Below are positions 8,622 through 61,645 of a DNA stretch of 64,000 nucleotides, in pieces. Position 1 is the stretch's first letter. Each line of letters opens with the position of its first letter. This DNA comes from Pontibacter sp. SGAir0037. GTDB taxonomy: Bacteria; Bacteroidota; Bacteroidia; Cytophagales; Hymenobacteraceae. Location: assembly GCF_005491705.1 (NCBI RefSeq), contig NZ_CP028092.1, forward strand, positions 806,001 to 870,000, given 5' to 3'. Below the pieces are notes generated by a model. The model saw only the letters and a program-made list of their open reading frames with translations, was not told the origin of the DNA and ran no database searches. A program made the position numbers and the translations under genes.

Positions 8622-9860
8622 TCACGGCCTTACTCCCAGCTGCCAGTGCGCAAACAGGTTCGGAATGGCCTTAGCCACCTTCCCCAGCCAATCGCTTGCT
8701 CTGATTTTATGGCCCTGCAGTTTCTTATACTTCTGCCTGGCCCAGCTCTTGAGTACAAGGTTCAAATATCTCAATACCTCATAGAGTTCCGATTTGTAGA
8801 AGTGTCCGTAGTAGTTAATCCAGCCTTTCAGAACTGGGTTGATTTCCTCGGCCAGCCTTGTCAGGCTGCTGCCGCTTCTGCTGGTCAACTTCCATGCCCT
8901 TATCCTTTCCCGGATTGCCTTCCTGGCTTTATCGCCAACTGCCGGTAAGAATCCGATAAAATATTTACCCTGCTTATTCCGTGACTTCCTGCTTCTGAAT
9001 GTATAGCCCAGAAATTCAAAAGACATGTTCGGGTAACTTTTGCGTCGGTCCTCGTCCCTGCAGTAAACAATTTTGGTCTTCTCCGGGTGCATCTCCAAGC
9101 CACATGCCTTTAGCCTTTCTGCCAGTGCTTCTTTAAGCGCTATCGCCTGCTGCTCGGTGCTGCAGTGTATCACACAGTCGTCTGCGTAGCGCTCGAACGG
9201 GCAACCGGGATACTTTATCCGCAGCCACTCGTCCATGCAGTAGTGCAGAAACAGGTTGGCCAGCAGCGGACTGATGACTGCTCCCTGCGGAGTGCCCTTT
9301 GTCCTTTCTGTGGTTATGCCGTTTCTTTGCTGCACAGGTGTTTTGAGCCACCGCTCGATGTAGAGCAGCACCCATTTGCAGTCTGTGTGCCTGCGCACTG
9401 CTTTTAGGAGCAACTCGTGCGGGATGCTGTCGAAGAAGCCTTTGATGTCCAGGTCCAGAACCCAGTCCTGCCGCCAGCACCGCTGCCTGGCTTTGCCCAC
9501 CGCTTCCAGTGCGCTTTTGCCCGGCCTGTACCCATAGGAGTCGTCATGGAACACAGGCTCCAGTACTGGTGCCAATGTCATGGTGACTACCATCTGGGCA
9601 ATACGATCCGTAACAGTGGGTATTCCTAGTGGACGGGTGCCCCCGCCGCTCTTGGGAATTTCCACCAGTAAGACGGGTGCGGGCATATAGCTTCCCGAGC
9701 TCATTCGGTTCCATAACCGGTAAAGGTGATTTCTGCTGTCCTGGTCGAACTCCTCGAGGTTTAGCCCATCCACACCTGCGCTACCTCCGTTTTGTTTTAC
9801 ACGCAGGTAAGCCTGGTGCACGATGTGCTTTGAGATGGTAAATGGTTTTGTCTTAATCAT
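8622..9860 (-). CDS. ltrA: Group II intron reverse transcriptase/maturase (inner intron)
   Basis: Reverse transcriptase that helps its own intron splice and copies it into new sites. RT blocks are clear: GGSAGVDG near the start, RPLGIPTVTDRIAQ, SYGYRPGKSA, DLDIKGFFDSIPH (catalytic Asp), GTPQGAVISPLLANLFLH and the active site YADD (FERYADDCVIHC), then a maturase-like domain with INPVLKGWINYY. There is no obvious HNH endonuclease. The start is placed at ATG 9860 because a strong GGAGG lies 7 bases upstream; a longer frame reaches 9920. Length ~412 residues is normal for bacterial intron proteins. Confidence 0.85.
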   Translation of the reverse strand: MIKTKPFTISKHIVHQAYLRVKQNGGSAGVDGLNLEEFDQDSRNHLYRLWNRMSSGSYMPAPVLLVEIPKSGGGTRPLGIPTVTDRIAQMVVTMTLAPVLEPVFHDDSYGYRPGKSALEAVGKARQRCWRQDWVLDLDIKGFFDSIPHELLLKAVRRHTDCKWVLLYIERWLKTPVQQRNGITTERTKGTPQGAVISPLLANLFLHYCMDEWLRIKYPGCPFERYADDCVIHCSTEQQAIALKEALAERLKACGLEMHPEKTKIVYCRDEDRRKSYPNMSFEFLGYTFRSRKSRNKQGKYFIGFLPAVGDKARKAIRERIRAWKLTSRSGSSLTRLAEEINPVLKGWINYYGHFYKSELYEVLRYLNLVLKSWARQKYKKLQGHKIRASDWLGKVAKAIPNLFAHWQLGVRP

Positions 9861-10283
9861 GTCAGTACCTCCTGCAGGCTTACCTGCAGTTTTCTTTGTG
9901 ATAAAAACCGGATAATACATCCCCTTGGCTCCATCCCCATTACAGGGACTTCCACGCTACTACGGGATGTTCCGCCCGCGTGCCCTGCCTCGGTACTCTT
10001 ACTCTTGTGGGTCTGCCACTTGAGCTTCTCCCTTCTCATCAGGACGACACGTTCTCACGTTCCGTGCAAATGCCTGTGTTAAGGTCACGCTGCCTTAATG
10101 CCGGATGCCGCATGAGCAGTAGCCAGGTTGCCCTCATGCTTATCCCGGGACAGTGGTGACTCCCGGTTTTGACATCACTTATTCGCTAACGACACTTCTT
10201 CAGCAGTTCACTTGCGTTCGTCTCCTTAACACCTACCTGCTACCTTTCCGGTAACTTTTCCTTGTCGCTCACGACCATGCCTT

Positions 10284-11717
10284 TTAAGCAAAGCCGCACA
10301 AGGCGGTTTGGAGCCTGCACCTGACTACCGGCTCCGAGGGGCCTGCCCTCATCATTTGCACAGCACCAAAGGACACTAAAAGCGTCCTTCGTTCGTGACA
10401 CACCACCACTGTACAAGCGGTTCTCGCATACAGCGGTTCGTTAAGCTGTGGAGCTACTTTCTTGTAGTAGTCAAGCATTGATTCATACCCCCTGCGGACA
10501 AGCCGTTTCACCGTTACCGTCGTTATCAGGATTGGACTTTGAGCTACTGCCCATCCTCCTTTCCTGGTCCTGCTCCAGGCATACGCCTGCCACTTGGGAA
10601 CGCCCAGCCGAATCAGGTTCTTCCTTTTCCGGTCCGGTCGTTTCCAGTCATGCCAGATGCAGTGCCTGAGCCTGTTTCGTATCCAGCTGTCGACCTCTTT
10701 GAGTTTGCCCTGTATACTTGCCAAACGGAAGTAGTGGACCCAGCCTCGCTGCGCCTCTTTCAGTTCCCGGACACGCTGCTCAAAAGAGCAGGGCGTTGTT
10801 TTGCGGGTGATGCTCTTTAGCTTTTGCTTTAACCTTTCCCATCCCTTCTTTGCCACTACCAGCTGGTATTTGCCCTTATCTCCCTTCTTATAGGTGGGCA
10901 CGAATCCGTGACCCAGAATCTGAAAGTCTACTGGCCGCCTGATGCCGCTCTTCTCCCTGTTGATAGGCAGCTTGAGCCTGTTCCGCAGGAAGAGGAATAC
11001 AGCGTTGCCTACTTTTCGAGCTTCATCTTCACTTTTGGTGTAGACGCTGAAGTCGTCGGCATAGCGCACGTAGCGCAGCCCCTGCCGCTCCAGTTCCTTA
11101 TCCAGCTCGTGGAGCATGATATTGGAGAGCAGCGGTGAGAGCGGGCTTCCCTGCGGCACGCCCTTCCGACGTTTGACCAGTCTCCCGTTGATAAGGATGG
11201 GGGCCCGGAGCCATTTGCGGATGAGGCGTAGGGCGAGGGGGCATTTTACCTTCCGGTAAAGCAGTTGCAGCAGCAGGCAATGATCCACTTCATCGAAGAA
11301 GTTCTGCAGGTCGATGTCCACGATGTGCTGATAGCCCTCGTGGATGTGCCTGTGTGCCTGCTGCAGGGCCTGGTGGGCATTGCGGTTGGGGCGGAAGCCG
11401 TAGCTGTGCTGGGTAAAATCAAGCTCAAAGAGCGGTGCTATCACCTGATTAACGGCCTGTTGCAGTACGCGGTCGGTGACGGTGGGAATGCCCAGCAGGC
11501 GATTCTTACCGTTGCTCTTGGGTATGGCTACCCCTAGGATGGGTGGAGGCAGGTACCTGCCGTTGCAGATGTCGGTAGCGATGGCGTCCCTGTTTTGTTT
11601 CAGGTGCGTAGCCAGCTTCTCTACCGGCATACCGTCCACACCGGCCGAACCTTTGTTGGCCAGCACGTGCGTGTATGCCTTGAGCATGTTGCCCCGGTGG
11701 AGTACCTTCTCTATCAT
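10284..11717 (-). CDS. ltrA: Group II intron reverse transcriptase/maturase (outer intron)
   Basis: Intron-encoded reverse transcriptase: KGSAGVDGM, RLLGIPTVTDRVLQQ, SYGFRPNRNAHQA, DIDLQNFFDEVDH, GVPQGSPLSPLLSNI and YADD (VRYADDFSVY), followed by a maturase region ending about LDYYKKVAPQLNEPLYA. The frame reads through domain V and then ~40 codons into the inner intron, so the C-terminal tail after about position 10404 is probably not native. The ATG at 11717 gives MIEKVLHRGNM, a normal start for the family; a longer frame reaches 11792. It belongs to the outer, class C-like intron. Confidence 0.82.
   Translation of the reverse strand: MIEKVLHRGNMLKAYTHVLANKGSAGVDGMPVEKLATHLKQNRDAIATDICNGRYLPPPILGVAIPKSNGKNRLLGIPTVTDRVLQQAVNQVIAPLFELDFTQHSYGFRPNRNAHQALQQAHRHIHEGYQHIVDIDLQNFFDEVDHCLLLQLLYRKVKCPLALRLIRKWLRAPILINGRLVKRRKGVPQGSPLSPLLSNIMLHELDKELERQGLRYVRYADDFSVYTKSEDEARKVGNAVFLFLRNRLKLPINREKSGIRRPVDFQILGHGFVPTYKKGDKGKYQLVVAKKGWERLKQKLKSITRKTTPCSFEQRVRELKEAQRGWVHYFRLASIQGKLKEVDSWIRNRLRHCIWHDWKRPDRKRKNLIRLGVPKWQAYAWSRTRKGGWAVAQSPILITTVTVKRLVRRGYESMLDYYKKVAPQLNEPLYARTACTVVVCHERRTLLVSFGAVQMMRAGPSEPVVRCRLQTALCGFA
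10404..10439 (-). ncRNA. Outer intron domain V
   Basis: A 36-base hairpin GAACCGCTGTA...TACAGTGGTG with nine consecutive pairs, a bulge and a GAGAAC-type apex matches group IIC domain V. The inner intron begins directly after it. Confidence 0.75.
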
Positions 11718-12193
11718 CTTTACTACTTTTACTGTAATCTCTGCCCCGCTTAAGGCAAGGCTGGCTGAGCCTCCTTGCCGAATTAAGAGCAACTTAACGT
11801 TCGGCCCTTCGGTAGCTTGTGAGACCTCCGGGTGCTTCCCGGCTCGTTACCTCTACCTACTATGGCCTCTGCTGACTTCTCCCTGTGTTCACGACAGAGG
11901 GAGACCTCCCCAGGTAAGAGCACATTCCTTCCTCCGATTCCTGCTGCATCTACACAAAGTCGCTTGTTGGTCAGGGGCTTTACAAAGATGTGCTTGCTTA
12001 CCCACGACTCCCTGCCTCTTATGCAGTTTCTGTCCGTCAGTACCGGATTTTGCAGTCCCGCTTTCTTCACTGCACGCCTCACGACGAACCAGCTTGCGGC
12101 TTGCTAACAGGCTTCACCAACTCGCCTGTAAGGGACTTGCACCCTCTGGAATAATTTGATACCTTCAGTACCAGGTGCCCATACTGGGCGCAC

Positions 12194-14919: not shown

Positions 14920-16554
14920 TGTTGCACAACTCAAGCATAACTTGTTTCTCCTATTTCTTTCCCCGCCCACCATACCTTCCGATTTGCTAAAAGTAGGCTG
15001 AAAAACTCCTGTGGCTCTGGTCTGGGCAGGGCCAAGACAGCTGTCTGGCTTCTTTTTGGGGTGAAGCGCAGCAGTTTCTGCAGGTTGTATGCTGCTGCTG
15101 CCATAATCATTCCCTTATTAGCTACTTCCAGTCCGCGAGTGTTGATCTTGCCCATTCCCATGAAGTTTAGCAGCGTACCCAGTACCGGTTCCACCGTGGC
15201 CTGCCGCAGCCCTTTCATGCGCCGCCCCCAACGGCTGTTGACCCGGCTGATGGCCCGCTCGTACTCGTCCCGGTAGTAAGTGATTTCCACCTTGCGCTCA
15301 TGGCCTTTGCCAATGCAGCCTTCACGGTAAGGGCAACCCTTGCAATCCTTTCTGGTGGTCAGGTAGATCTTCATTTTATTTGTTTCGACCCGGTTGGCTG
15401 CCACTCTGCGGAAGGTAGCTTTCTTGCCCCAGGGGCACAGCCAGTAATCCTCTTCTCTGTTGTAGGTGAATCCCGCAGGGCCACCCTTGTAGGTGCCGTG
15501 TGGCGGGATAAAGGCGCTTATTCCCTCTCGTTCCAATAAGGCGTAGTTGCTGCCTGAAGAGTAGCCGGCGTCGGCCAGCAGCGCGGTGCAGCTCAGGCGA
15601 AGCAGTTGTAGCCTTGCTTGAAGATGGCTGACTATGGCGGGCAGGCATAGACTATCCTTGCGGTCAGCTTGTGCGGCCTGCACGTGCGTGATCACATGGC
15701 GGCTCGTGTCTACCGAGAGCTGCAAAAGGTAACAGAGCTTGCGGGCCTTGCCCGGTTTTATCGCGATGCGGGCATCCGGATCCACGGGCGAGTAATGTGT
15801 CTTGTTGGAAGTGTATTTGGCGCCCTTGTTATGGGCGCCCGGGTGGTAGTTCTGTTCCAGTTGCCACTTGCGGTTGCGGGCCCGGATCTCAAGCAATTCT
15901 TCCCGGCTGGCCGTGATGGTACGCTGCTGCTGGCTGGCTTTGTTGGCCTTCGCTATGCGATCCCCGCGGCTGATGACCCTGACTCGTTCCAGGTGGGCAT
16001 TGAGCGTCTCCTGGGGCACCTTCAGTTCAAGGGAATCCATGGATGCATTGGCTTTGACGAGAGCCGAGTCCACCACCTGCGTGTGGCCCGAGACCATGCC
16101 TGCCTCCACGCACAGGGAGAGCACGCGCGTGAAGACTTCTTCAAAGAGAGAGGCGGGCAAAAGCTGGCGGGTGCGCGAGACGGTCGAGTGCCAGGGCAGG
16201 GGCTCGTCGAGCTGGTAATCGAGGAAGTAGAGCAGGTCCAGGCGCAGGCTGCAGTGCTCGATCAGCTTGCGGTCAGAGGAGATGTTCTCCAGGTGCGCCA
16301 CTAGGCAGAGCTTGAAGAAGACCACCGGGTCAATCGAGTGCTGGCCGCACCTGCCGTAGTAGGGAGCCGTCAGCTGGTAGAGAAACGAGAGGTCGAGCCT
16401 GTCCTTGAGCCGCCGGTAGAAGTTGTGCGCCGGCACGTGCGCCGAGAGCGAGAAGCGCAGCTCCCGCTCGTCTTCGAAAGTTTTCCTGCCCTGCATCCCA
16501 TCAAAGATTTGGTAATATATCCTTTTACGACTATCTTCAATAGGTTGTGCAACA
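14920..16554 (-). mobile_element. IS1182-family insertion sequence
   Basis: The ends TGTTGCACAAC (14920-14930) and GTTGTGCAACA (16544-16554) form an 11-base perfect inverted pair. The trinucleotide AGC flanks both ends and could be a short target duplication. The element holds one intact transposase gene on the minus strand. It is inserted at the left edge of an attC-like site (A5). Confidence 0.7.
14931..16496 (-). CDS. IS1182-family transposase
   Basis: DDE transposase. After the typical start MQGRKTFEDERE comes the conserved N-terminal domain (GQHSIDPVVFFKLCLVAHLE), then first Asp in QVVDSALVKANAS, second Asp in ALLADAGYSSGSNY, a Cys-rich block CKGCPYREGC and the Glu in QATVEPVLGTLLNFMGMGKI. 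ATG 16496 is chosen because family members start there; the frame extends to a GTG at 16559 but those codons cover the terminal inverted repeat. The gene seems intact and may be active. Confidence 0.85.
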   Translation of the reverse strand: MQGRKTFEDERELRFSLSAHVPAHNFYRRLKDRLDLSFLYQLTAPYYGRCGQHSIDPVVFFKLCLVAHLENISSDRKLIEHCSLRLDLLYFLDYQLDEPLPWHSTVSRTRQLLPASLFEEVFTRVLSLCVEAGMVSGHTQVVDSALVKANASMDSLELKVPQETLNAHLERVRVISRGDRIAKANKASQQQRTITASREELLEIRARNRKWQLEQNYHPGAHNKGAKYTSNKTHYSPVDPDARIAIKPGKARKLCYLLQLSVDTSRHVITHVQAAQADRKDSLCLPAIVSHLQARLQLLRLSCTALLADAGYSSGSNYALLEREGISAFIPPHGTYKGGPAGFTYNREEDYWLCPWGKKATFRRVAANRVETNKMKIYLTTRKDCKGCPYREGCIGKGHERKVEITYYRDEYERAISRVNSRWGRRMKGLRQATVEPVLGTLLNFMGMGKINTRGLEVANKGMIMAAAAYNLQKLLRFTPKRSQTAVLALPRPEPQEFFSLLLANRKVWWAGKEIGETSYA

Positions 16555-16555
16555 A

Positions 16556-16620
16556 GCACAAGGTATACAAGTCATACTTCGGTTATGCCTCGTTTACCTT
16601 GTATACAACCCGTCAGTAGC
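16556..16620 (+). other. attC-like site A5
   Basis: The perfect stem GTATACAAG (16563-16571)/CTTGTATAC (16598-16606) encloses a loop with ACTTCGGTTATGCC. The 3' end is CCCGTCAGTAGC. The gene start is 19 bases further on. The left part is interrupted by the IS1182 element. Confidence 0.55.
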
Positions 16621-18860: not shown

Positions 18861-20087
18861 TTAATCTAGTTTAAACAGGGTTTGCAGTGAGTCCAGGAGT
18901 ACCTGCCGCGATGCACCTGTTGTCGTTTTTAAGGCGCCTGCCGGTCTTCTGATAAGCCGGTCTAATGCTGCTTTAGCCAGCTTGCTGGCTGTGTCTTCCT
19001 GCTGCAGTTGCGGGTGCTTTGCCAGTTCTGTTTCCAGCACAGATGCAAAAAAACTTTTGAGCTGGGCAACAGATTTTGCCACAGGCAGTTCTTCCAGCCA
19101 TTGTGCAAATTGTTCGGTTTCTTCTTCTATGATCTGTTCTACATCGGCTATGGCTTGCATGCGGGCAGCTTTAACAGCCTGTGTCCGGCTCGTGATCTGG
19201 TCTATGTTGATGAGGGTTGTATGTGCCAGTTGAGCTACGGCAGGAGCTATGCTTTGTGGTACAGAAAGGTCCAGCACTATACGTCTGTTGGAGGTTGTAC
19301 CAAGCTGCTCAGGCTTTATCTGCTCTCCACCGCTCACACAGGAAATCACTACATCAAAGGAAGGCAGTGCAGCAAGATATTGTGAGTAAGGCAAGTGTTC
19401 TAATTGTAGTTTCTCTGCCAGTTCAGCAGCTTTGGCGTCGGTACGATTGGCGACAGCAATTGCTTTAAATCCAAAAGAGGCGGCATACTTTGCTACATCT
19501 GTGCCCATTTGTCCGGCCCCTATTATAAGCAGTTTTTTAGCCGGGAAATCTTTTCTGGGTATAAAATCAGCTATTCTTTCCAGGGCAGCATAACCAACCG
19601 AAGAGGCACCGGAACGGAAACCTGTTTCGTTATGCACACGCTTATGAGCCCGGAGCAGCGTTTGCATAGCCTGGTGCAGCAGCGGACTTCCGAACTGCAG
19701 ATCTTTTGTATGCTGATAACTTTCCTTAAACTGGCCGATAATTTGACGATCGCCTATCACCTGAGAGCGTAACCCCAGGCCGACTTCCAGCAGGTACTGC
19801 AAGGTACTCTCGCTGTAATTGTGATGCGTAAACAGGTTCGTGTATGCTGGCTGCTTGTGCAGTTGCTTAAACTGCAGCAGTTCCTGTTGTATTTGTGCAG
19901 GGGTGGTGTCGGCCGATTCGAAATAAACCTCTGTGCGGTTGCAGGTGGTTATCACCAGTACGCCTTCAGCCAATCCCCTGATCTTTAAGGAAGCCATAAA
20001 TGCTGCCGCTTCTTCTTTCTGTAACTGAAGCGCCTGCCGCCAGTTTAATGAGGCTGTCTGATGAGATAGAGAAACTGCCTTCAGCAT
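18861..20087 (-). CDS. hemA: Glutamyl-tRNA reductase, first copy
   Basis: 408 residues. The enzyme reduces glutamyl-tRNA to glutamate-1-semialdehyde, the first step of haem synthesis by the C5 route. The catalytic Cys49 is in TTCNRTEVY; the substrate domain contains LRSQVIGDRQIIGQFKESYQ; the NADPH domain has LIIGAGQMGTDVAKYA; the C-terminal dimerisation helix is present. The window holds a second, divergent copy at 32454-33725. It lies between the ankyrin and catalase genes, suggesting that haem supply and catalase are connected (inference). Confidence 0.88.
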   Translation of the reverse strand: MLKAVSLSHQTASLNWRQALQLQKEEAAAFMASLKIRGLAEGVLVITTCNRTEVYFESADTTPAQIQQELLQFKQLHKQPAYTNLFTHHNYSESTLQYLLEVGLGLRSQVIGDRQIIGQFKESYQHTKDLQFGSPLLHQAMQTLLRAHKRVHNETGFRSGASSVGYAALERIADFIPRKDFPAKKLLIIGAGQMGTDVAKYAASFGFKAIAVANRTDAKAAELAEKLQLEHLPYSQYLAALPSFDVVISCVSGGEQIKPEQLGTTSNRRIVLDLSVPQSIAPAVAQLAHTTLINIDQITSRTQAVKAARMQAIADVEQIIEEETEQFAQWLEELPVAKSVAQLKSFFASVLETELAKHPQLQQEDTASKLAKAALDRLIRRPAGALKTTTGASRQVLLDSLQTLFKLD

Positions 20088-23213: not shown

Positions 23214-23777
23214 TTAAAGTGCCTGGGTTTTCTGAGGCAGCAGCACCAGGTCAACTATAACGTTTAGTTCTTCTTCCACTTTCACCATACCGCCAAGTTT
23301 GCGTGGCGTATGTAAATCAAAGTCAGAGAAATTGAGGCAAAGGTCTGCTCTCAGTACTTCCTTGTTAGCTTCTTCTGCTCTGTAAAAGTGCACCTGCTGA
23401 AGCAGTTTGCTTTTACCTGCTAACTGAAGCCTTAACGTTCCGGCGTAGCCTTTTCTAAGCTGTTGCAGTTCCAGCACTTCTACGTAAACCGTCGGGTACT
23501 GCTGTGTATTGAGCGTACGCTGAAAATCCTTGTTCAGCAAAAGATTACCGCAGCCAAATTCTTTTACAGGTATGCGCAGGCATAGCTTTTCCTTCGCAGA
23601 GAGCGGCTTGTTGATCAGAAGCGTATCCAGCCTGCTTTCTGCTTTATACTGGCAGGAGATACTCCCAAGAGTGGTAGAAGCCTGCACCGTTATTCGTTTT
23701 TCCCGGACAACGAGTGCCTCTTCTTTCGGAAGTAATCCGCTTACAGCCAGCAGGAGGAGGGCAAGTAGGATACGCAT
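23214..23777 (-). CDS. YceI-like secreted protein
   Basis: 187 residues. A short signal peptide (RILLALLLLAVSGLL) is followed by a beta-rich sequence with the spacing of the YceI lipocalin-like fold, including FQRTLNTQQYPTVYVEVLEL and LNFSDFDLHTPRKLGGMVKV. YceI proteins bind isoprenoid-type lipids in the periplasm. It is the last gene of an apparent operon (YceI, porin, YceI-like) with gaps of 4 and 21 bases. Confidence 0.65.
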   Translation of the reverse strand: MRILLALLLLAVSGLLPKEEALVVREKRITVQASTTLGSISCQYKAESRLDTLLINKPLSAKEKLCLRIPVKEFGCGNLLLNKDFQRTLNTQQYPTVYVEVLELQQLRKGYAGTLRLQLAGKSKLLQQVHFYRAEEANKEVLRADLCLNFSDFDLHTPRKLGGMVKVEEELNVIVDLVLLPQKTQAL

Positions 23778-23798
23778 CTGATCAGGTTTTAAACTTTG

Positions 23799-25094
23799 TT
23801 AGAAAGAGATGACACCTTCTACCATAAAGCCATCGAATTTGCCACCATGGCGAATGTCGGTGCCAGGGAAACCATAGTATCTCTGCTGCACATACTCAAC
23901 CTTAGCTAAGATATTTCTGGTGGCAAACCAGCCGGCACCGATTTGCTGGCGCTCAATCTCTGCTTTGGTATTCACAGTAGCCAGCGTGCCTTGTACCTTG
24001 TTGTAGCGGCCCGCCACGTAGAAGTTTTCACTGTTACCGAATCTGTAAACAACATCCGCACCTACCTGGTCCCAGGTTCTCTCGCTGGTTTCGGCGGCAG
24101 ATCTGCCTTTGGCTCTTTCCAGGTTACCAAAGAGTTCCAGGCCGTGGTATTTTACAAAGGGGTTAACTACCAGGGCAGTTACCTTATCGGTGAAACCTGG
24201 GTTAAAGCGGCCAGAAAAAGCCTGCGCGCTGGTAGTGGCCAGTTGGTTTTCCATTACCAGGTAGTAACGTGAGCCTGCTCTGTCGCCACCATACAGGGTG
24301 TTGCTGGCCGAACTGGATGTTGTGTAGAAGGAGCCGGTTAAACGTACTCTTAAATTGTCAGCTACCAGGTTATCGTACCCCACTTTACCATAGTAAGATG
24401 CCGCTCTCTGGTCTGGCTTGGTTATACCACCTTGTATCTCACCGCCTGTTATGGCTGCCAATGCCAGAAAGCCTTTGTTCTGGTAAATGACCTCACCACC
24501 AATTTCAGTGGTAAAGGCATCCATAATGTAGTTACCTACAAAAGGGTTGTACATGGCCTGTGCGTTGTCTGTTCTTCTGAAGTGCGCATCGCCGTAGTTG
24601 ATTTCCATATGCCCTACGCGCAGTGTTACATGCTCCATTAGCTTATCGGCAAAGGCATTGTTCAGGAAGCCAAGTTTATCCACCTGTATATAGCCGCCTT
24701 TTACCCATGTCTCGGGGTGGTGGCGCGATGACAGGTAGGTCACCAGGTTCAGGCGAATACCATCGGCCAGGGCTACATCAAAGTTCAGGTTGGCGGTAGC
24801 CAGGTTAAAGCCATTGCCGATCGTAATCAGCTGGTTCAGGTTTTGCTCGTTTGAGTTTAAAACTGCCGAAGCCGTGTTGCTGTGCTGCAGCATCTGGAAC
24901 TGCTGTGTAAAGCTACCGCCCAGGCGCAGTTTCAGACCCTCGTAGACAACCGTATCCTGTTTAGAAGTCTCAAACACATGAATACCTCTTTTGTCGTTAG
25001 GTCTCCAGTTTTGCATGTCAGATAACGTAACCTGTGCATGAGAGCTTAGCTGCAAACCGAGTAGCAAGCTCAGGGAAAGTAAAGTCTTTTTCAT
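23799..25094 (-). CDS. Outer-membrane porin-like beta-barrel protein
   Basis: 431 residues with a signal peptide (LLSLSLLLGLQLSSHAQ). The mature sequence alternates polar and hydrophobic residues and ends in VEGVISF, with a terminal Phe as usual for barrel proteins. It contains GGSFTQQFQMLQ, YGDAHFRR and long Tyr/Gly-rich strands. I would place it in the broad porin family of Bacteroidota; substrate unknown. It is 4 bases downstream of a YceI gene. Confidence 0.65.
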   Translation of the reverse strand: MKKTLLSLSLLLGLQLSSHAQVTLSDMQNWRPNDKRGIHVFETSKQDTVVYEGLKLRLGGSFTQQFQMLQHSNTASAVLNSNEQNLNQLITIGNGFNLATANLNFDVALADGIRLNLVTYLSSRHHPETWVKGGYIQVDKLGFLNNAFADKLMEHVTLRVGHMEINYGDAHFRRTDNAQAMYNPFVGNYIMDAFTTEIGGEVIYQNKGFLALAAITGGEIQGGITKPDQRAASYYGKVGYDNLVADNLRVRLTGSFYTTSSSASNTLYGGDRAGSRYYLVMENQLATTSAQAFSGRFNPGFTDKVTALVVNPFVKYHGLELFGNLERAKGRSAAETSERTWDQVGADVVYRFGNSENFYVAGRYNKVQGTLATVNTKAEIERQQIGAGWFATRNILAKVEYVQQRYYGFPGTDIRHGGKFDGFMVEGVISF

Positions 25095-25098
25095 CTTA

Positions 25099-25680
25099 TT
25101 AAAGGTTGATAGGTTGGAAATTTGCTTTAAAAGAAATCTTTAGATTGTTATCTGTCTTAATGGTACCTAAGAGTGCGGTCGGGGGAGTAAGCTTATAGTC
25201 GGTGAACTTTATAGCTGCCTGACCTTTTAATTCTACTGTGGCACCTTTCACCTGTGGCTGTACTTCGAATGTTACCGATTTGGTAACACCTGCTATGGTT
25301 AAGTTGCCTGTTACCTGCATCCTGTTCGGACTGATGTTCTTAAAAGAGGTCATCCTGAACTGGATGTCTTCATAACTTTTAGTTTTCAATGTTTTATAGG
25401 CAATATCATCCATGGCTCCTTTGCCGCTTTTCAAAGATTCTGATTTCATGGTCATTTCACCTGATTTGATAGATTTGATTGCCTGGTCTTCTACTATGAT
25501 TTCTGCTTTGCCCTGCGCAGAGGCTGTTACCATCTCCCAATCGTGCAGCGTAGAACCTCCGCTCACCTTTAGTTCTGGTTTCCCTGTTAATTCGTATGCA
25601 TTTTGTGCCTTTAAGGCCAGGCTCAGGAGCATAAGGAGCACCAGAAAGCCTGCGGTTTTGAAAAACTGTCCCTGATTCAT
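25099..25680 (-). CDS. YceI family protein
   Basis: 193 residues: signal peptide (FLVLLMLLSLALKAQ), then GGSTLHDWEMVTASAQGKAEI, FRMTSFKNI and TGNLTIAGVTKSVTFEV, the hallmarks of YceI proteins. Probably a periplasmic lipid-binding lipocalin-like protein. It is the first gene of the YceI-porin operon. A TGAC-N4-GTCA dyad lies ~60 bases upstream, in the region shared with the divergent universal stress protein gene. Confidence 0.8.
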   Translation of the reverse strand: MNQGQFFKTAGFLVLLMLLSLALKAQNAYELTGKPELKVSGGSTLHDWEMVTASAQGKAEIIVEDQAIKSIKSGEMTMKSESLKSGKGAMDDIAYKTLKTKSYEDIQFRMTSFKNISPNRMQVTGNLTIAGVTKSVTFEVQPQVKGATVELKGQAAIKFTDYKLTPPTALLGTIKTDNNLKISFKANFQPINL

Positions 25681-25736: not shown

Positions 25737-25748
25737 TGACGGTTGTCA
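25737..25748. promoter_or_regulatory. FNR/FixK-like dyad between YceI operon and USP gene
   Basis: The perfect palindrome TGACGGTTGTCA has the half-site and spacing of FNR/FixK/Dnr-type operators. The same arms with another spacer occur at 32396-32407 upstream of the second hemA. Confidence 0.5.
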
Positions 25749-25907
25749 CTTCAGAAAGTGATCTTTTGCTGCTTTCTGTCCACACGCTGAATAATTGCCC
25801 AAGGCTTGCAATTATTTATTATTAAACTGGATTTTACTGATAAATGTCATCTTGTGGAGTGATGCAGATCATGGGAAGTGAAGAAGTATGAACTTAATTT
25901 CAAGTTC

Positions 25908-27980: not shown

Positions 27981-29606
27981 ATGATAGATGTCATCTTTTC
28001 AAAAAGAGAGCTTCCGTATCTTTGGCACAGCATTTATATAACAGAAACAACCTCTAGCTCATTGGAAGAACCTTTGCAAAACCTCGAAGATAGAACACGC
28101 TTAAAGGCGATTATCGATACAGCTATTGATGGTATCATTACAATAGATCAGCGGGGAATTATTGAGACAGTTAACCCTGCCGCTGCCAATATCTTTGGTT
28201 ATGCTCCTGCTGAAATTATCGGGCAGAATATAAAAATACTGATGCCGGAGCCAGACTATAGCCGGCACGATAGTTATATCGAGAATTACCTGCGTACCGG
28301 TGAGGCACAGATAATTGGGAAAGGCCGGGAAGTATTGGGTAAAAAGAAAGACGGCTCAGTTTTTCCTTTCCTGTTGAGCATCAGTGAAGTGCAGTTGCAG
28401 GATAAGCTTATTTTTACCGGCATAGTGCACGATATTACAGGTCTTAAAAAGGCTGAGGCAGCCCTCCGCGAAAGTGAGAACAAAATCAATTCGATTATAC
28501 AGGCGGCGGTAGACGGCATCATCACCATCGACACCCGTGGTATTATTGAAATGGTAAATCCTTCTGCAGCAAAATTGTTTGGCTATCAGGAGGATGAGCT
28601 TTTAGGAAGAAGCATTAATGTGCTGATGCCGGAGCCGGACCAGAGCCGCCACGACGGGTACATGAACCGCTACCACAGAACAGGCGAGAAACGCATTATT
28701 GGTATCGGGCGTGAGGTAACCGGAAAGCGGAAAGATGGCTCCGTTTTCCCTTTTTACCTGAGCATTAGTGAAGTGCAGCTGGCCGACCGCAAAGTGTATA
28801 CTGGTTTTGTGCATGACATTACCCAGCAGAAACTGAACGAGGAAAGGCTACGGCGCTATGCGGCTGAACTGGAGCGAAGTAACCGCGAACTACAGGATTT
28901 TGCCTATGTGTCGTCGCACGATTTGCAGGAGCCTTTGCGTAAGATACAGGCCTTCGGGGACAGGCTGCTCAGCAAGGAGTACGCAAACCTAAGCGACCAG
29001 GGCAAAGATTATGTAGACCGTATGCTGAATGCTGCCTCGCGCATGCAGAACCTGATCAACGACCTGCTGGAATTTTCGCGCGTTACTTCCAAGTCCAAGC
29101 CTTTTGTAAAAGTAAACCTGGACCAGGTGTTGACGGAAGTACTTTCTGATCTGGAAGTAGCCATAGAGAAAACAGGTACAGAGATTATCCGCTCTCCACT
29201 GCCTACCATAGAGGCCGAACCAACGCAAATGCGGCAGTTGTTTCAGAACCTGATCAGTAATGCCATCAAGTTCCGGAAAGAAGACGAGAACCCGATCATC
29301 AATATCTATGCGAAAAGCCTGCAAAGGCAGGCACACCTGACGGCAACCCCCGGCGACGAAGTAACTGAGTTGTACATCGAAGACAACGGAATCGGGTTTG
29401 ATGAAAAATACCTGGACAGAATTTTTAACATCTTTCAGCGACTGGAAGGACAGAAATACGAGGGTTCCGGTGTCGGACTGGCCATCTGCCGCAAAATTGC
29501 AGTGCGCCACGGGGGGGATATCACTGCCAAAAGTCAGCCCGGTGTGGGAACCCGTTTTATCATTACATTAGCACTTAAACATCCCGAAGAGGACCAACAA
29601 AAATGA
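27981..29606 (+). CDS. FixL-like histidine kinase with two haem-type PAS domains
   Basis: 541 residues: PAS1 (~38-155), PAS2 (~165-285), HisKA with phospho-accepting His313 (SSHDLQEPLRK), and HATPase (DNGIGFDEKYLD, GSGVGLAICRKI). Both PAS domains contain the FixL haem signature: His96 in SRHDSYI with Arg116 in GKGREV, and His224 in SRHDGYM with Arg244 in GIGREV, equivalent to His200 and Arg220 of Bradyrhizobium FixL. It is thus a probable oxygen- or gas-sensing kinase. The stop overlaps the next gene's start (ATGA), so the two are translationally coupled. No membrane segment is seen; it is probably cytoplasmic. Confidence 0.82.
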   Translation: MIDVIFSKRELPYLWHSIYITETTSSSLEEPLQNLEDRTRLKAIIDTAIDGIITIDQRGIIETVNPAAANIFGYAPAEIIGQNIKILMPEPDYSRHDSYIENYLRTGEAQIIGKGREVLGKKKDGSVFPFLLSISEVQLQDKLIFTGIVHDITGLKKAEAALRESENKINSIIQAAVDGIITIDTRGIIEMVNPSAAKLFGYQEDELLGRSINVLMPEPDQSRHDGYMNRYHRTGEKRIIGIGREVTGKRKDGSVFPFYLSISEVQLADRKVYTGFVHDITQQKLNEERLRRYAAELERSNRELQDFAYVSSHDLQEPLRKIQAFGDRLLSKEYANLSDQGKDYVDRMLNAASRMQNLINDLLEFSRVTSKSKPFVKVNLDQVLTEVLSDLEVAIEKTGTEIIRSPLPTIEAEPTQMRQLFQNLISNAIKFRKEDENPIINIYAKSLQRQAHLTATPGDEVTELYIEDNGIGFDEKYLDRIFNIFQRLEGQKYEGSGVGLAICRKIAVRHGGDITAKSQPGVGTRFIITLALKHPEEDQQK

Positions 29607-30052
29607 AATCCGCAAAAAGCCCTATCATAATTCTTGTAGCCGACGATGATGCCGAAGATCGTATGCTGGTGAAGGAAGCGTTGGAGGAAAGCCGCCTGAC
29701 CAACCAGATCCTGTTTGTAGAGAATGGCGAGGAACTGCTGGACTACCTTCAGAACCGGGGCAAATTCTCAGATAAAGAAGAATACCCGACACCAGGACTT
29801 ATTTTGCTGGACCTGAACATGCCTAAAAAAGACGGAAGGGAAGCCTTGAAAGAAATCAAGGCCGATGATAGTCTGCGCATGATTCCGGTGGTGGTGCTGA
29901 CAACTTCTAAGGCAGAAGAAGACATTCTGCGCACGTATGATCTGGGTGTAAGTTCTTTCATTACGAAACCGGTTACCTTTTCTGCGCTGGTAGATGTGAT
30001 GAAAACATTAAGCAAATACTGGTTTGAAATAGTAGAATTGCCGAAACTTTAA
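29603..30052 (+). CDS. Single-domain response regulator (Rcp1-like)
   Basis: 149 residues with only a receiver domain. Acidic pocket ADDDAEDR, phospho-acceptor Asp in ILLDLNMPKKDG, Thr in VLTTSKAEED and Lys in FITKPV. It has no output domain, so it probably acts as a phosphate shuttle between kinases. Its start overlaps the FixL-like kinase stop by 4 bases. Confidence 0.85.
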   Translation: MKSAKSPIIILVADDDAEDRMLVKEALEESRLTNQILFVENGEELLDYLQNRGKFSDKEEYPTPGLILLDLNMPKKDGREALKEIKADDSLRMIPVVVLTTSKAEEDILRTYDLGVSSFITKPVTFSALVDVMKTLSKYWFEIVELPKL

Positions 30053-30069
30053 AACAGATAATCAACCGG

Positions 30070-31305
30070 ATGCCTGATAAGATCAGAGTACTGCTAATTG
30101 ACGATGATGAAGATGATTTTATCATCACGAGAGATATTATTGATGATATCCCGGGACGGTACTACCACCTGGAATGGGCAAACTCTTACCAGAAGGGGCT
30201 GGAACTGATTGGCGAGCATCGGCACCATGTATACCTGGTCGATTTTCGGTTGGGTGCGCAGGATGGGCTGGAGCTGATTACCCAGGCTGTGGAGAGAGGC
30301 ACAGAGGCCCCTTTTATACTGCTCACAGGCCAGAGCGACCGTGAAACCGATGAAAGAGCCATGCGAGTCGGTGCATTGGATTACCTTGTGAAGGGTACGC
30401 TAACGCCTTTCGACCTGGAACGGTCGATCCGCTATAGTATAGAGCATGCCAAAAGCCTGGCCGAGATTCAGAAGTTAAACTCAGAGCTGGAGCAGCGGGT
30501 AGAAGAGCGTACACAGGAGCTGGCAGAGGCAATCAGAAAGCTGGAACTCACCAACAAGAGCCTGTATGAGGCAGAGCAGGAGGTGCGGAAAGCCCTGCAG
30601 AAAGAAAAAGAGCTGCATGAGCTTAAGTCGCGTTTTGTTACCATTGCTTCGCACGAATTTCGTACTCCCTTAAGTACTGTACTCTCATCGGCTTCGCTTA
30701 TAAGCAAATACAAAACGGCCGAAGATGATGAGAAGCGGAACAAGCACGTAAACCGTATTAAATCCGCTGTCAGCAATCTTACCTCCATTCTGAATGATTT
30801 TCTGTCGATAAGCAGAATTGAGGAAGGCAAAATTTATAATGTACCTTCCTCCTTCGATCTGGAAGTGTTCTCGCAGGAGGTTACAGAAGATATGCAGGGG
30901 CTTCTGAAACAGGGGCAGCAGATAAAATATAAGCATCAGGGAAAGGAAAAATCTGTTTATCTTGACAAGCAGTTGCTGAAGAACATTATGTTTAACCTGT
31001 TGTCGAATGCAAGCAAATACTCCGGAGAGGGAAAAGCGATCCGCTTTACAACGCAGATGGCAGGTGGTACTATAAGCATAGAAGTAGAAGACCAGGGCAT
31101 CGGTATTCCGGATGCAGATAAAACCCATTTGTTTACTCCTTTTTTCAGGGCACAGAACGTTACCAATATACAAGGCACAGGTCTAGGACTGAACATCGTG
31201 AAGCGATACGTTGATATAATGGGGGGAACCATGAGTTACAAGAGTATTTTAGATAAAGGAACCACTTTTACTGTAACATTTCCATTAAACAAAACAGTCT
31301 TATGA
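30070..31305 (+). CDS. Receiver-histidine kinase hybrid
   Basis: 411 residues: an N-terminal receiver (LIDDDEDDFIITRD, Asp in VYLVDFRLGAQDG, residues 1-125), a coiled coil (~135-190, EQRVEERTQELAEAIRKLEL), HisKA with His in TIASHEFRTPLSTV and HATPase with EDQGIGIPDADK and GTGLGLNIVKRY. The receiver-first order suggests that phosphorylation from the upstream FixL-like system controls this kinase. The stop overlaps the next start by 4 bases. Confidence 0.85.
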   Translation: MPDKIRVLLIDDDEDDFIITRDIIDDIPGRYYHLEWANSYQKGLELIGEHRHHVYLVDFRLGAQDGLELITQAVERGTEAPFILLTGQSDRETDERAMRVGALDYLVKGTLTPFDLERSIRYSIEHAKSLAEIQKLNSELEQRVEERTQELAEAIRKLELTNKSLYEAEQEVRKALQKEKELHELKSRFVTIASHEFRTPLSTVLSSASLISKYKTAEDDEKRNKHVNRIKSAVSNLTSILNDFLSISRIEEGKIYNVPSSFDLEVFSQEVTEDMQGLLKQGQQIKYKHQGKEKSVYLDKQLLKNIMFNLLSNASKYSGEGKAIRFTTQMAGGTISIEVEDQGIGIPDADKTHLFTPFFRAQNVTNIQGTGLGLNIVKRYVDIMGGTMSYKSILDKGTTFTVTFPLNKTVL

Positions 31306-32363
31306 AAAAGATACTGCTGATAGAAGATAACCAGGAAATCCGCGAGAATATTGCGGAAATTCTAACGCTGGCTAATTATGAGGTATTGGAAGCTGAGAAT
31401 GGAAAGGTAGGAGTAGAGCTGGCTAAAAGAGAAATTCCGGATCTGATCATCTGTGATATTATGATGCCGCAGTTGGATGGCTATGGGGTATTGCACATGC
31501 TGAGCAACAACTCCAATACCTCGGGTATTCCTTTTATTTTCCTGACGGCTAAATCAGAGAAGGAGGATTTCAGAAAGGGCATGAACCTGGGAGCAGACGA
31601 TTACCTGATTAAGCCGTTTGACGACCTGGAGTTGCTTGATGCCATTGAAATGCGCCTCAAAAAGAATGAGATCCTGAGATCGGAGTTTCAGAACAACATG
31701 GAGGGGCTCCAGAATTTTATAAATGAAGCACGTGGCCTTGAAGACCTGAACAAGCTGATTTCCAACGAGCAGAAGGTAACCATCTACAGAAAGAAGCAAA
31801 ATCTGTTCTCTGAAGGCAACTTCCCGAATGCGCTTTATTTCCTGAGCAAAGGCAAAATTAAAACTTATAAAGCTAACGAAGACGGGCGGGAATATATCAC
31901 CAACCTGTTCAAAGACGGAGACTTTATTGGCTATCTTGATCTGATGGAGGAGAAGCCATACCGTGAATCTGCCATGGCGCTGGAAGATTCAGAAGTTTGT
32001 ATTATTCCGAAAGAAGAGTTTTTTTCTTTGCTCTACAAAAACCGCGATGTAGCCAATAAGTTCATCAAGATTCTTTCGGACAACTTGGCTGATAAAGAAG
32101 AACGCCTTTTAAAGCTGGCTTATAATTCTGTGCGCAAACGGGTGGCTGAAGCGCTGCTGCTGGTAGAGAAACAGTATAAAAGAGAAGATGCGGATCAGGT
32201 GCAGGTGGCTATCTCCCGCGAAGACCTGGCCAGTATTGTAGGTGCTTCCAAAGAAACAGTTATCCGGACACTGGCCGATTTTAAAGACGAAAAGCTGATA
32301 GACACACAGGGCAGCAAAATCACTTTCCTGAACCTGGAAAAGCTGAAGAGGATGCGAAACTGA
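31302..32363 (+). CDS. Receiver-CRP/FNR fusion regulator
   Basis: 353 residues. Residues 1-120 form a receiver domain (LLIEDNQEIRENI, Asp in LIICDIMMPQLDG). Residues ~150-260 form a cNMP-type beta-roll (GNFPNALYFLSKGKIKTYKA, DGDFIGYLDLM). The C-terminal winged helix (ISREDLASIVGASKETVIRT) recognises DNA. The fusion lets phosphorylation steer a CRP/FNR-type output, similar in logic to FixJ-FixK. No FNR cysteine cluster is seen. FNR-like dyads lie next to neighbouring promoters. It is coupled to the kinase upstream by a 4-base overlap. Confidence 0.85.
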   Translation: MKKILLIEDNQEIRENIAEILTLANYEVLEAENGKVGVELAKREIPDLIICDIMMPQLDGYGVLHMLSNNSNTSGIPFIFLTAKSEKEDFRKGMNLGADDYLIKPFDDLELLDAIEMRLKKNEILRSEFQNNMEGLQNFINEARGLEDLNKLISNEQKVTIYRKKQNLFSEGNFPNALYFLSKGKIKTYKANEDGREYITNLFKDGDFIGYLDLMEEKPYRESAMALEDSEVCIIPKEEFFSLLYKNRDVANKFIKILSDNLADKEERLLKLAYNSVRKRVAEALLLVEKQYKREDADQVQVAISREDLASIVGASKETVIRTLADFKDEKLIDTQGSKITFLNLEKLKRMRN

Positions 32364-32395: not shown

Positions 32396-32427
32396 TGACG
32401 AAAGTCATGTTTTAACAAGTTGATTTA
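32396..32427. promoter_or_regulatory. Paired regulatory sites upstream of second hemA
   Basis: The perfect dyad TGACGAAAGTCA (32396-32407) is followed by TAACAAGTTGATTTA (32413-32427), an exact inverted copy of the site at 25908-25922. Both are 27-58 bases upstream of the hemA start. The pairing of the two motif types at both loci suggests operators for the CRP/FNR-type regulator encoded just upstream (inference). Confidence 0.5.
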
Positions 32428-32453: not shown

Positions 32454-33725
32454 ATGAAAGACATGCAGATCCAGTTTAAAGCTTTAACCTTATCTTACAA
32501 GAATGCTCCGATCGCTGTGCGCGAGGCCGTAGCCCTGAATGAGATTGCCTGCAGAAACCTGTTAGATAAAATAAAGGAATTTACCGATGCAAGCGATGTG
32601 CTGGTGCTGTCGACCTGTAACCGCACCGAAATATACTATGCTTCGCCGAAAGACCTTTCGCAGGAGCTGATAAAGCTAATTGCTCTGGAGAAAGGATTTA
32701 TTGCGACCAAAGGGGTGCAGCCTTACTTCCGGTCAGTAGTAGAGGCAGAAGAGGCAGTGCAGCATTTATTTTATGTTTCTATTGGCCTGGAGTCTCAGGT
32801 GGTAGGCGATATGCAGATACTGAACCAGGTAAAAAAAGCGTATCAATGGTCTGCCGATGCTGGTATGGCAGGAGCTTTTCTGCACAGGCTCATGCACACG
32901 ATCTTCAACACCAATAAACTGGTGGTTAATCAAACTGCTTTTCAGGATGGGGCTGCTTCTGTGTCGTATGCCACTGTTGAGTTGGTTGAAGAACTGACGG
33001 CCGCCATACCTAACCCTCGCGTACTCATGATTGGCGTAGGTGATATTGGCAGAGATGTTTGCCTTAACTTTAAAAAATCATCCATCCGTAACCTGGTTAT
33101 AGTAAATCGCACACACCATAAGGCGCTGGAGCTGGCAAACCAGCTGGAGGCCAGAGCCGCTTATTGGGAAAATGTGTGGCATGAAATGAAGCAGGCCAAC
33201 GTGGTGATCTCTTCTGTGCCAGGCGATTGTTTTTTTATAAATAAGCAGGAGGTGGAAAAGAGAGAGGTAATAAGGACACAATTTTACATCGATTTGTCGA
33301 TGCCGCGCTGTATTGATGTAGCACTGGAAAATATAGCCGGAATCTCAGTTTATAACATCGATAATATTCGCAACCGTACCTCTGCTGCTTTGGCATTGCG
33401 GTTAGCGGCTATTCCGGAGGTAAGGCAAATCTTAGCAGTGGCTATGGCCGATTTTCTAACCTGGACGCAGGAAATGGCTATTTCGCCTGCTCTGCAGCAA
33501 TTCAAGAATAAGTTAGAGCAGATCAGGCAGCAGGAACTGGCGCGCTATCTGAAAAAGGTAGGTGCCTCGGAGCAGGAGCTGTTGCTTGAGGTAACGAAGA
33601 ACATCCTCCATAAAATCATAAAAATGCCGGCGCTTGAGCTTAAATCTGCCTGCCAGCGTGGAGAATCAGAGGCTTTGCTCGAGGGTTTAAGTGCTCTTTT
33701 CAATTTGGAAGAACAGGAAGCTTAG
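32454..33725 (+). CDS. hemA: Glutamyl-tRNA reductase, second copy
   Basis: 423 residues with Cys55 in LSTCNRTEIYY, LESQVVGDMQILNQVKKAY, the NADPH-binding motif MIGVGDIGRDV and the C-terminal dimer helix. It makes glutamate-1-semialdehyde for haem. Sequence is clearly different from the copy at 18861-20087. It is placed directly after the oxygen-sensor/CRP operon and behind FNR-like sites, so it may be the oxygen-regulated copy. An alternative start is the ATG three codons downstream. Confidence 0.88.
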   Translation: MKDMQIQFKALTLSYKNAPIAVREAVALNEIACRNLLDKIKEFTDASDVLVLSTCNRTEIYYASPKDLSQELIKLIALEKGFIATKGVQPYFRSVVEAEEAVQHLFYVSIGLESQVVGDMQILNQVKKAYQWSADAGMAGAFLHRLMHTIFNTNKLVVNQTAFQDGAASVSYATVELVEELTAAIPNPRVLMIGVGDIGRDVCLNFKKSSIRNLVIVNRTHHKALELANQLEARAAYWENVWHEMKQANVVISSVPGDCFFINKQEVEKREVIRTQFYIDLSMPRCIDVALENIAGISVYNIDNIRNRTSAALALRLAAIPEVRQILAVAMADFLTWTQEMAISPALQQFKNKLEQIRQQELARYLKKVGASEQELLLEVTKNILHKIIKMPALELKSACQRGESEALLEGLSALFNLEEQEA

Positions 33726-33906: not shown

Positions 33907-34725
33907 ATGACACAGATGACTGCCACTGCTCCCGGGAAAGTAGTATCTGCTACTTTCCCCAAAGAATATAAGGAACTGGTGGCTATTTGGGAGAGCCAGC
34001 CTTATGAACCGCTCCTGGTGGATAGCTGGTACTATATGCGGTTTCACCCAACTCTTGCTGCAGTCTTGCACCAGGCACCATGTGTTACCTGGGTTCTGGA
34101 CCTTCGAACACAGCAGTACGATTTTGTCAGTACCAACTCTGAGCAGATCTTAGGCTATACGGCTAATTATTTTACTGAAAACGGTTTGGCTGGCGGCATA
34201 GCCATCCTGAATCCAGAAGACCTTTCGAAAACCTGGAAGCTCCTGAAAAATATCTGGGATTTTATCATGGCAGTACCAGCTCCAGACCGGGTGCAATATA
34301 AATTTAGCTATGATTACCGCATCCTAAAGCCCGACGGAAAGCACCTGCGCGTGCTGGAGCAGAATACGGTACTGCAGCAGGATAGAAAAGGCAATATTAC
34401 ACGCATGCTGGGAATGTGCTCTGATATCAGCAACTGGAAGAAAAGCGGGAACCAGATAGCTTCTGTTGTGTCGGCCAAAGATAATTCCTGCGTCTTCTTT
34501 TCTCCTGATAAGGCCGCACAGCAATCTGCACAGCAGTTACTCAGTAAGAGGGAGCTGGAAATTGTAAAGCTGGTAGCCGAAGGCTACAGCAGCAAGATAA
34601 TCGCTGAAAAGCTTTTTATTAGCTTTAATACCGTGAACACGCATCGGCAGAAAATAATAGAAAAGACCCATACACGAAATACAGGCGGGCTGGTGCAGTT
34701 TGCCATCAGCAATGGCTTGATTTAG
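33907..34725 (+). CDS. PAS-LuxR type transcription regulator
   Basis: 272 residues. A PAS-like domain (~45-175; WVLDLRTQQYDFVSTNSEQI, LGYTANYF, MLGMCSDISNWK) is followed by a LuxR helix-turn-helix (LSKRELEIVKLVAEGYSSKI, ISFNTVNTHRQKI). It probably senses a small ligand or redox state. It has no receiver domain. The gene ends in a strong terminator. Confidence 0.82.
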   Translation: MTQMTATAPGKVVSATFPKEYKELVAIWESQPYEPLLVDSWYYMRFHPTLAAVLHQAPCVTWVLDLRTQQYDFVSTNSEQILGYTANYFTENGLAGGIAILNPEDLSKTWKLLKNIWDFIMAVPAPDRVQYKFSYDYRILKPDGKHLRVLEQNTVLQQDRKGNITRMLGMCSDISNWKKSGNQIASVVSAKDNSCVFFSPDKAAQQSAQQLLSKRELEIVKLVAEGYSSKIIAEKLFISFNTVNTHRQKIIEKTHTRNTGGLVQFAISNGLI

Positions 34726-60940: not shown

Positions 60941-61645
60941 GTGGAAAGAGACGACAACCTGGTGGAAGAAGAGCTAAGGCTGCTGGTGGAGAAGCACCCC
61001 TCGATCGGCTTCTGGCAGTGCTTCCACCGCATCAGGAGGAAGGGATACGGGTGGAACCACAAACGGGTGTATAGGGTCTACAGCCAGCTGAAACTCAACA
61101 TCAGGAGGAGACACAAGAGAAGGCTGCCGGCCCGCCTCAAGCAGGCCCTCTTCCAGCCCGAGAAGATCAACCAAGTCTGGTCGGTGGACTTTATGAGTGA
61201 CAGCCTCTGGGACGGCCGCAAGTTCCGCCTGCTCAACATCGTCGACGACTTTAACCGGGAGCTCCTCACCATGGAGGCGGACCTGTCGATCCCGGCGCTG
61301 CGCCTGATCAGGGTGCTCGAGTACCTGAGGGAATTCAGGGGGCTGCCCGAGATGATCCGGGTGGACAACGGGCCGGAGTTCATCTCCCGCAAACTCGAAG
61401 ACTGGTGCAAGGAGAACAAGGTGAGGCTGGTGTTTATTCAGCCAGGGAAACCGACCCAGAACGCCTACATCGAGCGCTGCAACGGCAGCATCAGGAGAGA
61501 GCTGCTCAACGCTTACGTGTTCCGGACCCTTTCGGAGGTGCGCCAGAAAGCGGAGGAATGGATGGAGGACTATAATCACCACCGCCCGCATCAGGCGCTA
61601 AATTTCAGAACACCTGCGGAATTGTTGGAGGAAATTGTAACTTGA
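60941..61645 (+). pseudogene. IS3-family transposase OrfB, N-terminus out of frame
   Basis: DDE integrase core with Asp (VWSVDFMSD), Asp (RVDNGPEF) and Glu ([13 protein letters not shown]). The frame expected after programmed frameshifting ([19 protein letters not shown]) is broken near 60884: one frame runs to a TAG at 60928, while the true continuation ([18 protein letters not shown]) is in another. The element is therefore probably unable to make OrfAB. Confidence 0.75.

Follow-up and report, generated by a model that had tools for sequence, protein, structure and literature searches.

The window examined here (the whole stretch of 64,000 nucleotides, positions 806,001 to 870,000 of contig NZ_CP028092.1 of Pontibacter sp. 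SGAir0037) contains four adjacent genes that are probably a Bacteroidota counterpart of the FixL-FixK oxygen response. A sensor kinase with two FixL-like PAS domains (HK1) is followed by a lone receiver, a receiver joined to a kinase, and a receiver fused to a regulator of the CRP/FNR family (REC-CRP), and hemA comes next. An earlier note, made from the letters of this DNA, had described these domains and the coupling of the four open reading frames (ORFs). Pfam confirms the domains, and all four ORFs lie on the + strand with an overlap of 4 bases between genes 1 and 2, a gap of 17 bases between genes 2 and 3, and an overlap of 4 bases between genes 3 and 4. The elements of the locus are:

27981..29606, + strand: HK1, PAS1-PAS2-HisKA-HATPase sensor kinase, 541 residues (Pfam, match to FixL in the PDB, family alignment)
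28092..28448, + strand: PAS1, putatively FixL-type, with His96, Arg116, Ile111, Leu132, and Ile134, and with Asn102 and Lys114 unlike FixL
28476..28832, + strand: PAS2, putatively FixL-type, with His224, Arg244, Ile239, Ile242, Leu260, Ile262, and Arg230
29603..30052, + strand: gene 2, stand-alone receiver, 149 residues (Pfam PF00072)
30070..31305, + strand: gene 3, receiver joined to a HisKA-HATPase kinase, 411 residues (Pfam)
31302..32363, + strand: gene 4, REC-CRP, with receiver, cNMP_binding, and Crp helix-turn-helix (HTH) domains, 353 residues (Pfam)
32454..33725, + strand: hemA, glutamyl-tRNA reductase, predicted target (TIGR01035, 297.1 bits for a cut-off of 209.55)

The mechanism we propose takes FixL as its model. 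As O2 drops, HK1 would lose it from one of its haem-PAS domains or from both, and the kinase would become active. HK1 would then phosphorylate the receiver of gene 3, with gene 2 acting as a partner, a competitor, or a sink. The kinase of gene 3 would in turn phosphorylate the receiver of gene 4. The latter would bind TGAC-N4-GTCAT-N-TTT and raise the expression of the cbb3 oxidase and of the genes for its assembly, together with hemA, class II ribonucleotide reductase, the cytochrome c maturation genes, and stress proteins, and perhaps that of its own operon.

PAS2 aligns with the haem domain of BjFixL (1dp6, E-value 3.5e-36). In the alignment, His224/Arg244 of PAS2 and His96/Arg116 of PAS1 coincide with His200/Arg220 of FixL, in the residue numbering that we take to be that of FixL. 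The claim that both domains keep the haem His and the gating Arg was thus well founded: both pairs are invariant in 70/70 aligned kinases (the window and 69 other loci), 69 of which bear on both PAS domains, the single PAS of G049 being spread by the aligner over both blocks. Tyr203, Ile215, Leu236, and Ile238 are also retained in PAS1 and PAS2, and at the places of Leu236 and Ile238 the only substitution is to Val, in 1 to 3 rows of 70. By their proximal His and distal Arg, the PAS domains of HK1 appear to be FixL-type and would bind haem and O2. An AlphaFold2 model of PAS1-PAS2 (mean predicted local distance difference test 80.7, predicted template modeling score 0.50) is nearest to the tandem PAS of BjFixL (8js5, E-value 2.1e-21, template modeling score 0.72). 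The HisKA domain carries His313. With the NCBIfam FixL model NF041777, which was made for rhizobial FixL, HK1 scores 339.4 bits, below the cut-off of 850.

It is possible, if on the unlikely side, that only PAS2 senses O2 and that PAS1 is a relic or a structural domain of the haem type, occupying the position that the haem-free PAS-A has in BjFixL. PAS1 has Asn102, Gln110, and Lys114 at the positions of Arg206, His214, and Ile218 of FixL. The pocket residues are lost in PAS1 only and retained in PAS2 in two loci of another family (L133 and L134), and a single PAS suffices in G049, L146, and L148. Yet the His, the Arg, and the distal residues of PAS1 are kept across the family, and Asn or Lys also occur at the divergent places in one-PAS sensors such as L141, L144, L145, and L147. 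Moreover, the PDB holds entries titled FixL haem domains in which R206 or R220 is replaced (R206 in 2cmn as read from the alignment).

In the remaining genes of the cascade, the active residues of receivers and kinases are conserved. Asp70 (the acceptor), Thr100, and Lys122 of gene 2 are conserved except in one broken row. Asp58, Lys108, and His195 of gene 3 are invariant (69/69), and so are Asp52 and Lys104 of gene 4 and its recognition-helix residues Lys317, Glu318, Ile321, and Arg322 (69/69). The recognition helix reads GASKETVIR, or near it, in both the four-gene form and a two-gene form of the order (described below); the motif is unmatched in 17/68 REC-CRP copies, which are distant or cut. 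The two Cys residues of gene 4 (Cys51 and Cys233) do not make the FNR-type set for a 4Fe-4S cluster. According to Pfam, none of the four genes encodes an Hpt domain or a FixJ, i.e., a receiver with a LuxR-type HTH, since gene 2 is a receiver only and gene 4 has a CRP HTH.

These results modify the idea of a full FixL-FixJ-FixK-like phosphorelay in one operon. The FixL pocket residues and a chain ending in a CRP-family regulator stand; FixJ is missing, and a receiver is joined to the FixK-like part. A FixK lacks such a receiver, and with the NCBIfam FixK model NF050806 gene 4 reaches 77.2 bits, below the cut-off of 300. FixK is a CRP-family regulator of cbb3 genes, and here predicted sites, to which gene 4 may bind, precede cbb3 operons. 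An operon is plausible in the window, but without an Hpt domain two stacked two-component steps fit better than a phosphorelay, and the receiver of gene 3 may act allosterically. In relatives, the distance between genes 2 and 3 ranges from 8 bases to 1.9 kb, with one overlap.

The four genes travel together. A search with the PAS-PAS module (E-value 1e-50) of 200 genomes of the family found it in 70, and 68/69 family loci have all four genes in the same order, the exception (L068) being cut by a contig end. The next gene is hemA in 62/69 relatives' loci. This cohesion bears on another explanation, which we consider improbable: that there is no linear chain, HK1 and gene 2 serving another output and genes 3 and 4 another input. 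The variable distance between genes 2 and 3 would suit such a split, as would the sets of HK1, receiver, and receiver-kinase-like genes found without a full REC-CRP in other phyla. However, the four genes are together in all family loci except the contig-cut one, and L149, which lacks gene 2, has gene 3 and REC-CRP straight after HK1. In the two-gene form, a haem-PAS of the same family feeds directly a gene-3-type kinase. Since this form has a kinase of the same family followed by REC-CRP, the proposed phosphotransfer from gene 3 to gene 4 is also supported.

The putative output of the cascade could be traced through its DNA site. TGAC-N4-GTCA lies upstream of hemA in 41/63 loci (window included), versus 1/137 coding stretches. 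We scanned the window with a weight matrix made from the hemA sites of 37 relatives (32 distinct), the window itself being excluded. The four best matches fall at hemA, at the start of HK1, and in the intergenic region between the YceI and universal stress protein (Usp) genes, and the next distinct place has 10.2 bits. The predicted operators and the further predicted targets are:

32396..32407, + strand: predicted operator before hemA, 30.3 bits, best match of the window
27982..27993, + strand: predicted operator at the start of HK1, 16.7 bits, one core mismatch
25838..25849, + strand: predicted operator facing the Usp gene at 25962, 15.0 bits
25737..25748, - strand: predicted operator facing the YceI-porin-YceI genes, 13.8 bits
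25962..26975, + strand: universal stress protein, predicted target with the operator upstream (Pfam PF00582)
23214..25680, - strand: genes for YceI, a 431-residue protein, and a YceI-like protein, predicted targets (PF04264 for 25099-25680)

The best scores of five single-base shuffles of the window were 10.3-13.7, which makes the site at 25737 (13.8) marginal. The 431-residue protein is what we take to be a porin, and this trio of genes also adjoins the two-gene system at L151. The site at HK1 has a consequence for the gene itself. The ATG at 27981 is perhaps a false start, because the operator would cover 27982-27993 and because an in-frame TTG at 28062 would give 514 residues, the commonest length among the kinases (24/70, in mechanically called ORFs). 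A site above 13 bits lies upstream of HK1 in 14/69 relatives. Palindromes of the type GTGGT...ACCAC occur upstream of the receiver-kinase gene and are unlike the REC-CRP operator.

Across the whole genome, TGAYNNNNRTCATNTTT matches 14 times (13 places, two matches being the two strands of one place), versus 4 for the reversed control. The cbb3 cluster accounts for four matches, which precede a FixI-type ATPase, ccoNO, ccoG, and a Usp gene. Further matches stand in front of a ccmC-like gene and of a fatty acid desaturase, and in the interval that separates a hemerythrin/ScdA_N/DUF2249 gene from a class II ribonucleotide reductase. The matrix gives less than 12 bits to the match on the Usp side of the cbb3 cluster and to one of the pair at ccm; the matches at 83871 and 2110089 have no clear target, nor any place above 12 bits. 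The match on the second contig (126.5 kb), an operator-like site at 102456-102472 (20.3 bits), has no evident target. Such matches average 10.8 in the 70 cascade genomes versus 5.3 for the control, and 3.1 versus 1.8 in genomes without the cascade, the latter means coming from 32 of 130 genomes (98 were not entered).

The sites recur at the same kinds of genes in relatives. A site above 13 bits precedes ccoNO in 14/20 four-gene genomes and in 12/19 without the four-gene form, versus 0/39 inside the gene. Among the genes neighboring the cascade, such sites precede hemA in 54/62 cases (the training set), ccoG in 5/10, ccoNO in 1/5, and fixH in 0/12, against 13/534 random windows, which may include hemA promoters. 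In 89 fetched loci (69 of the family and 20 of the order, each neighbor family typed by one representative) we found ccoP in 13, fixH in 13, ccoG in 10, the FixI-type ATPase in 8, hemN in 7, ccoNO in 5, and a globin in 5. According to PMC4999443, the alphaproteobacterial FixK/FnrN regulons include cco, hemA, hemN, and ccm.

The distribution of the cascade points in the same direction. FixO is found in 77/100 family genomes, and a full-length REC-CRP is present in 77/77 of these versus 9/23 of those without FixO (Fisher p 1.8e-11), counts that are phylogenetically non-independent. Across the four genera that have the four-gene form, 60/60 genomes either contain both the cascade and FixO (54) or lack both (6); in G039 FixO is partial, at a contig end. 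Since the six genomes with neither are spread over three genera, several losses are likely; one of them (G087) has a leftover REC-CRP stretch of 140 residues (74%, one stop). The proposed low-oxygen role is thus supported both by this co-occurrence with cbb3 and by the predicted operators at cbb3, hemA, and class II ribonucleotide reductase. That the cascade instead senses nitric oxide (NO), carbon monoxide (CO), or redox through its haem seems very unlikely: the haem of FixL also takes NO and CO (by PDB titles) and there is a predicted site at the hemerythrin/ScdA_N/DUF2249 gene, of a kind that in other bacteria is associated with NO repair, but the main predicted targets (cbb3 oxidase, hemA, class II ribonucleotide reductase, cytochrome c maturation) are the usual low-O2 set. 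Separately, genomes of the same genus have stand-alone CRP genes (for example G099:C21:376009, G064:C2:432455, and G038:C1:91434) that resemble the CRP half of gene 4 at 44-48% and lie about 5 kb from FixO; they are possibly a second, receiver-free FixK-like regulator.

More distant relatives have other forms of the cascade. Of the 20 order-level loci fetched (out of 31), 13 have the two-gene form, in which a single haem-type PAS is fused to a kinase homologous to gene 3 at about residues 134-406 and REC-CRP follows. In L150, the fourteenth, the kinase is followed by no more than a receiver match, and the other six are L149 without gene 2, L146 and L148 with one PAS, and L132-L134 with two. 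The two-gene form also appears within 1.5-kb flanks in 11/13 class-level loci; close to 13/15 more distant loci of the phylum there is a LuxR-type HTH match, an arrangement like that of FixL-FixJ. In the sister genera that lack the four-gene form, a gene-3-type kinase and REC-CRP are present in 19/19 loci read, with 46-50% identity in REC-CRP, which is within 12 kb of FixO in 12/19. Their PAS reaches only 49-70 bits, and the His/Arg motif is absent from its place in all 19, a loose pattern match in L324 sitting elsewhere. We had considered these genera as a negative control for the DNA site and rejected this use: having kept the ccoNO site and the kinase with REC-CRP, they are a second positive set.

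Since the two-gene, sister-genera, and four-gene forms share kinase and REC-CRP, the gene-3-type kinase and REC-CRP appear to be a constant core, whose input varies between a haem-PAS, another PAS, and a receiver. In the Pontibacter clade, a receiver seems to occupy the place of the PAS of this core, with a putative double haem-type kinase above it, and gene 3 would have had its PAS replaced. The trees, with many weak forks, give no clear direction for the exchange, and we take it from parsimony only, because the haem-PAS two-gene form is more widely spread. Other phyla too have HK1-like kinases accompanied by a lone receiver and by a receiver-kinase or just the receiver part of one (L260-L263, L266, L268, L221, L257, and L271; receiver 38-45%), and this set is perhaps an old module.

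Several observations weigh against an oxygen cascade of this kind, beyond the divergent residues of PAS1 and the shared ancestry behind the co-occurrence counts. A ccoNO site above 13 bits is lacking in 6/20 cascade genomes. O2-haem sensing is not essential to the core, because the PAS of the sister genera lack His/Arg and the same ccoNO site is there. In the sets of other phyla, the match to gene 4 nearby is mostly receiver-level or none. Within the family, the gene-2 match at L083 is split in two pieces.

The window has other features of note. hemA is present twice, 12 kb apart (18861-20087 on the - strand and 32454-33725 on the + strand), both above the TIGR01035 cut-off, and only the latter is preceded by a predicted operator. 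Immediately past it, at 33907-34725 (+), lies a gene for a protein with PAS and LuxR-type HTH domains, which is no conserved neighbor in the relatives' loci by our tblastn tables. Four ORFs noted from their translations (8622-9920, 10284-11792, and 14931-16559, all on the - strand, and 60941-61645 on the + strand) presumably encode two transposases and, in the other two cases, reverse transcriptases of group II introns, judging by their motifs.

Our literature searches on FixL or oxygen sensing in Bacteroidetes, Bacteroidota, Cytophaga, and Pontibacter, which left most subscription journals outside, found nothing on point, and no description of the switch for high-affinity respiration in this part of Bacteroidota. 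A candidate sensor, regulator, DNA site, and target list can now be named, making the proposal directly testable. Natural variants (two-, three-, and four-gene forms, one or two PAS, of haem or non-haem type) show how one regulatory core can swap its input. More tentatively, and with considerable doubt, this REC-CRP oxygen regulon with exchanged input could have two haem pockets of differing O2 affinity, so that its extra tier would make the response graded or switch-like over a wide range of O2, while hemA would supply haem to the sensor as feedback.

How does this system compare with known ones? With rhizobial FixL-FixJ-FixK it shares a putative haem-PAS kinase, a CRP-family output, predicted targets of the cbb3, hemA, and ccm types, and a tandem PAS as in BjFixL (8js5). 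It differs in that FixJ is absent, the CRP part carries a receiver, one more receiver and a receiver-kinase stand between sensor and output, both PAS look haem-type, and the kinase core is another. The earlier note had stressed a different architecture and two potential haem sensors in one kinase. Both PAS domains are present, but tandem haem-type PAS are common in other phyla, and we rejected the double-haem architecture as unique: in a scan biased toward such proteins, 59/79 loci have at least two PAS with His and Arg in one ORF (the first PAS being doubtful in L267). Of these, 17 carry the same cascade, and among the other 42 only two loci from metagenome-assembled genomes (L219 and L254) adjoin a REC-CRP with more than 50% identity. 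In four loci (L120, L121, L122, and L221) there are five tandem FixL-type PAS per ORF, each of which keeps the His and the Arg of the haem pocket. The tandem proteins of Azospirillum, Zhongshania, Skermanella, and others thus share the two or more PAS, whereas they are mostly other kinases with other neighbors. The dual or tri PAS-haem Aer2 proteins of Vibrio, by the titles of the papers on them, also have more than one haem-PAS but are chemoreceptors rather than kinases, with PAS-haem domains of another class. Closest is the Bacteroidota two-gene system, which has the gene-3-type kinase and REC-CRP and differs in its sensor, fused to the kinase, and in having neither HK1 nor gene 2. The component parts are therefore of known kinds, and what appears new is the proposed oxygen regulon under REC-CRP, together with its DNA site, and an input that has been exchanged while the core stayed constant.

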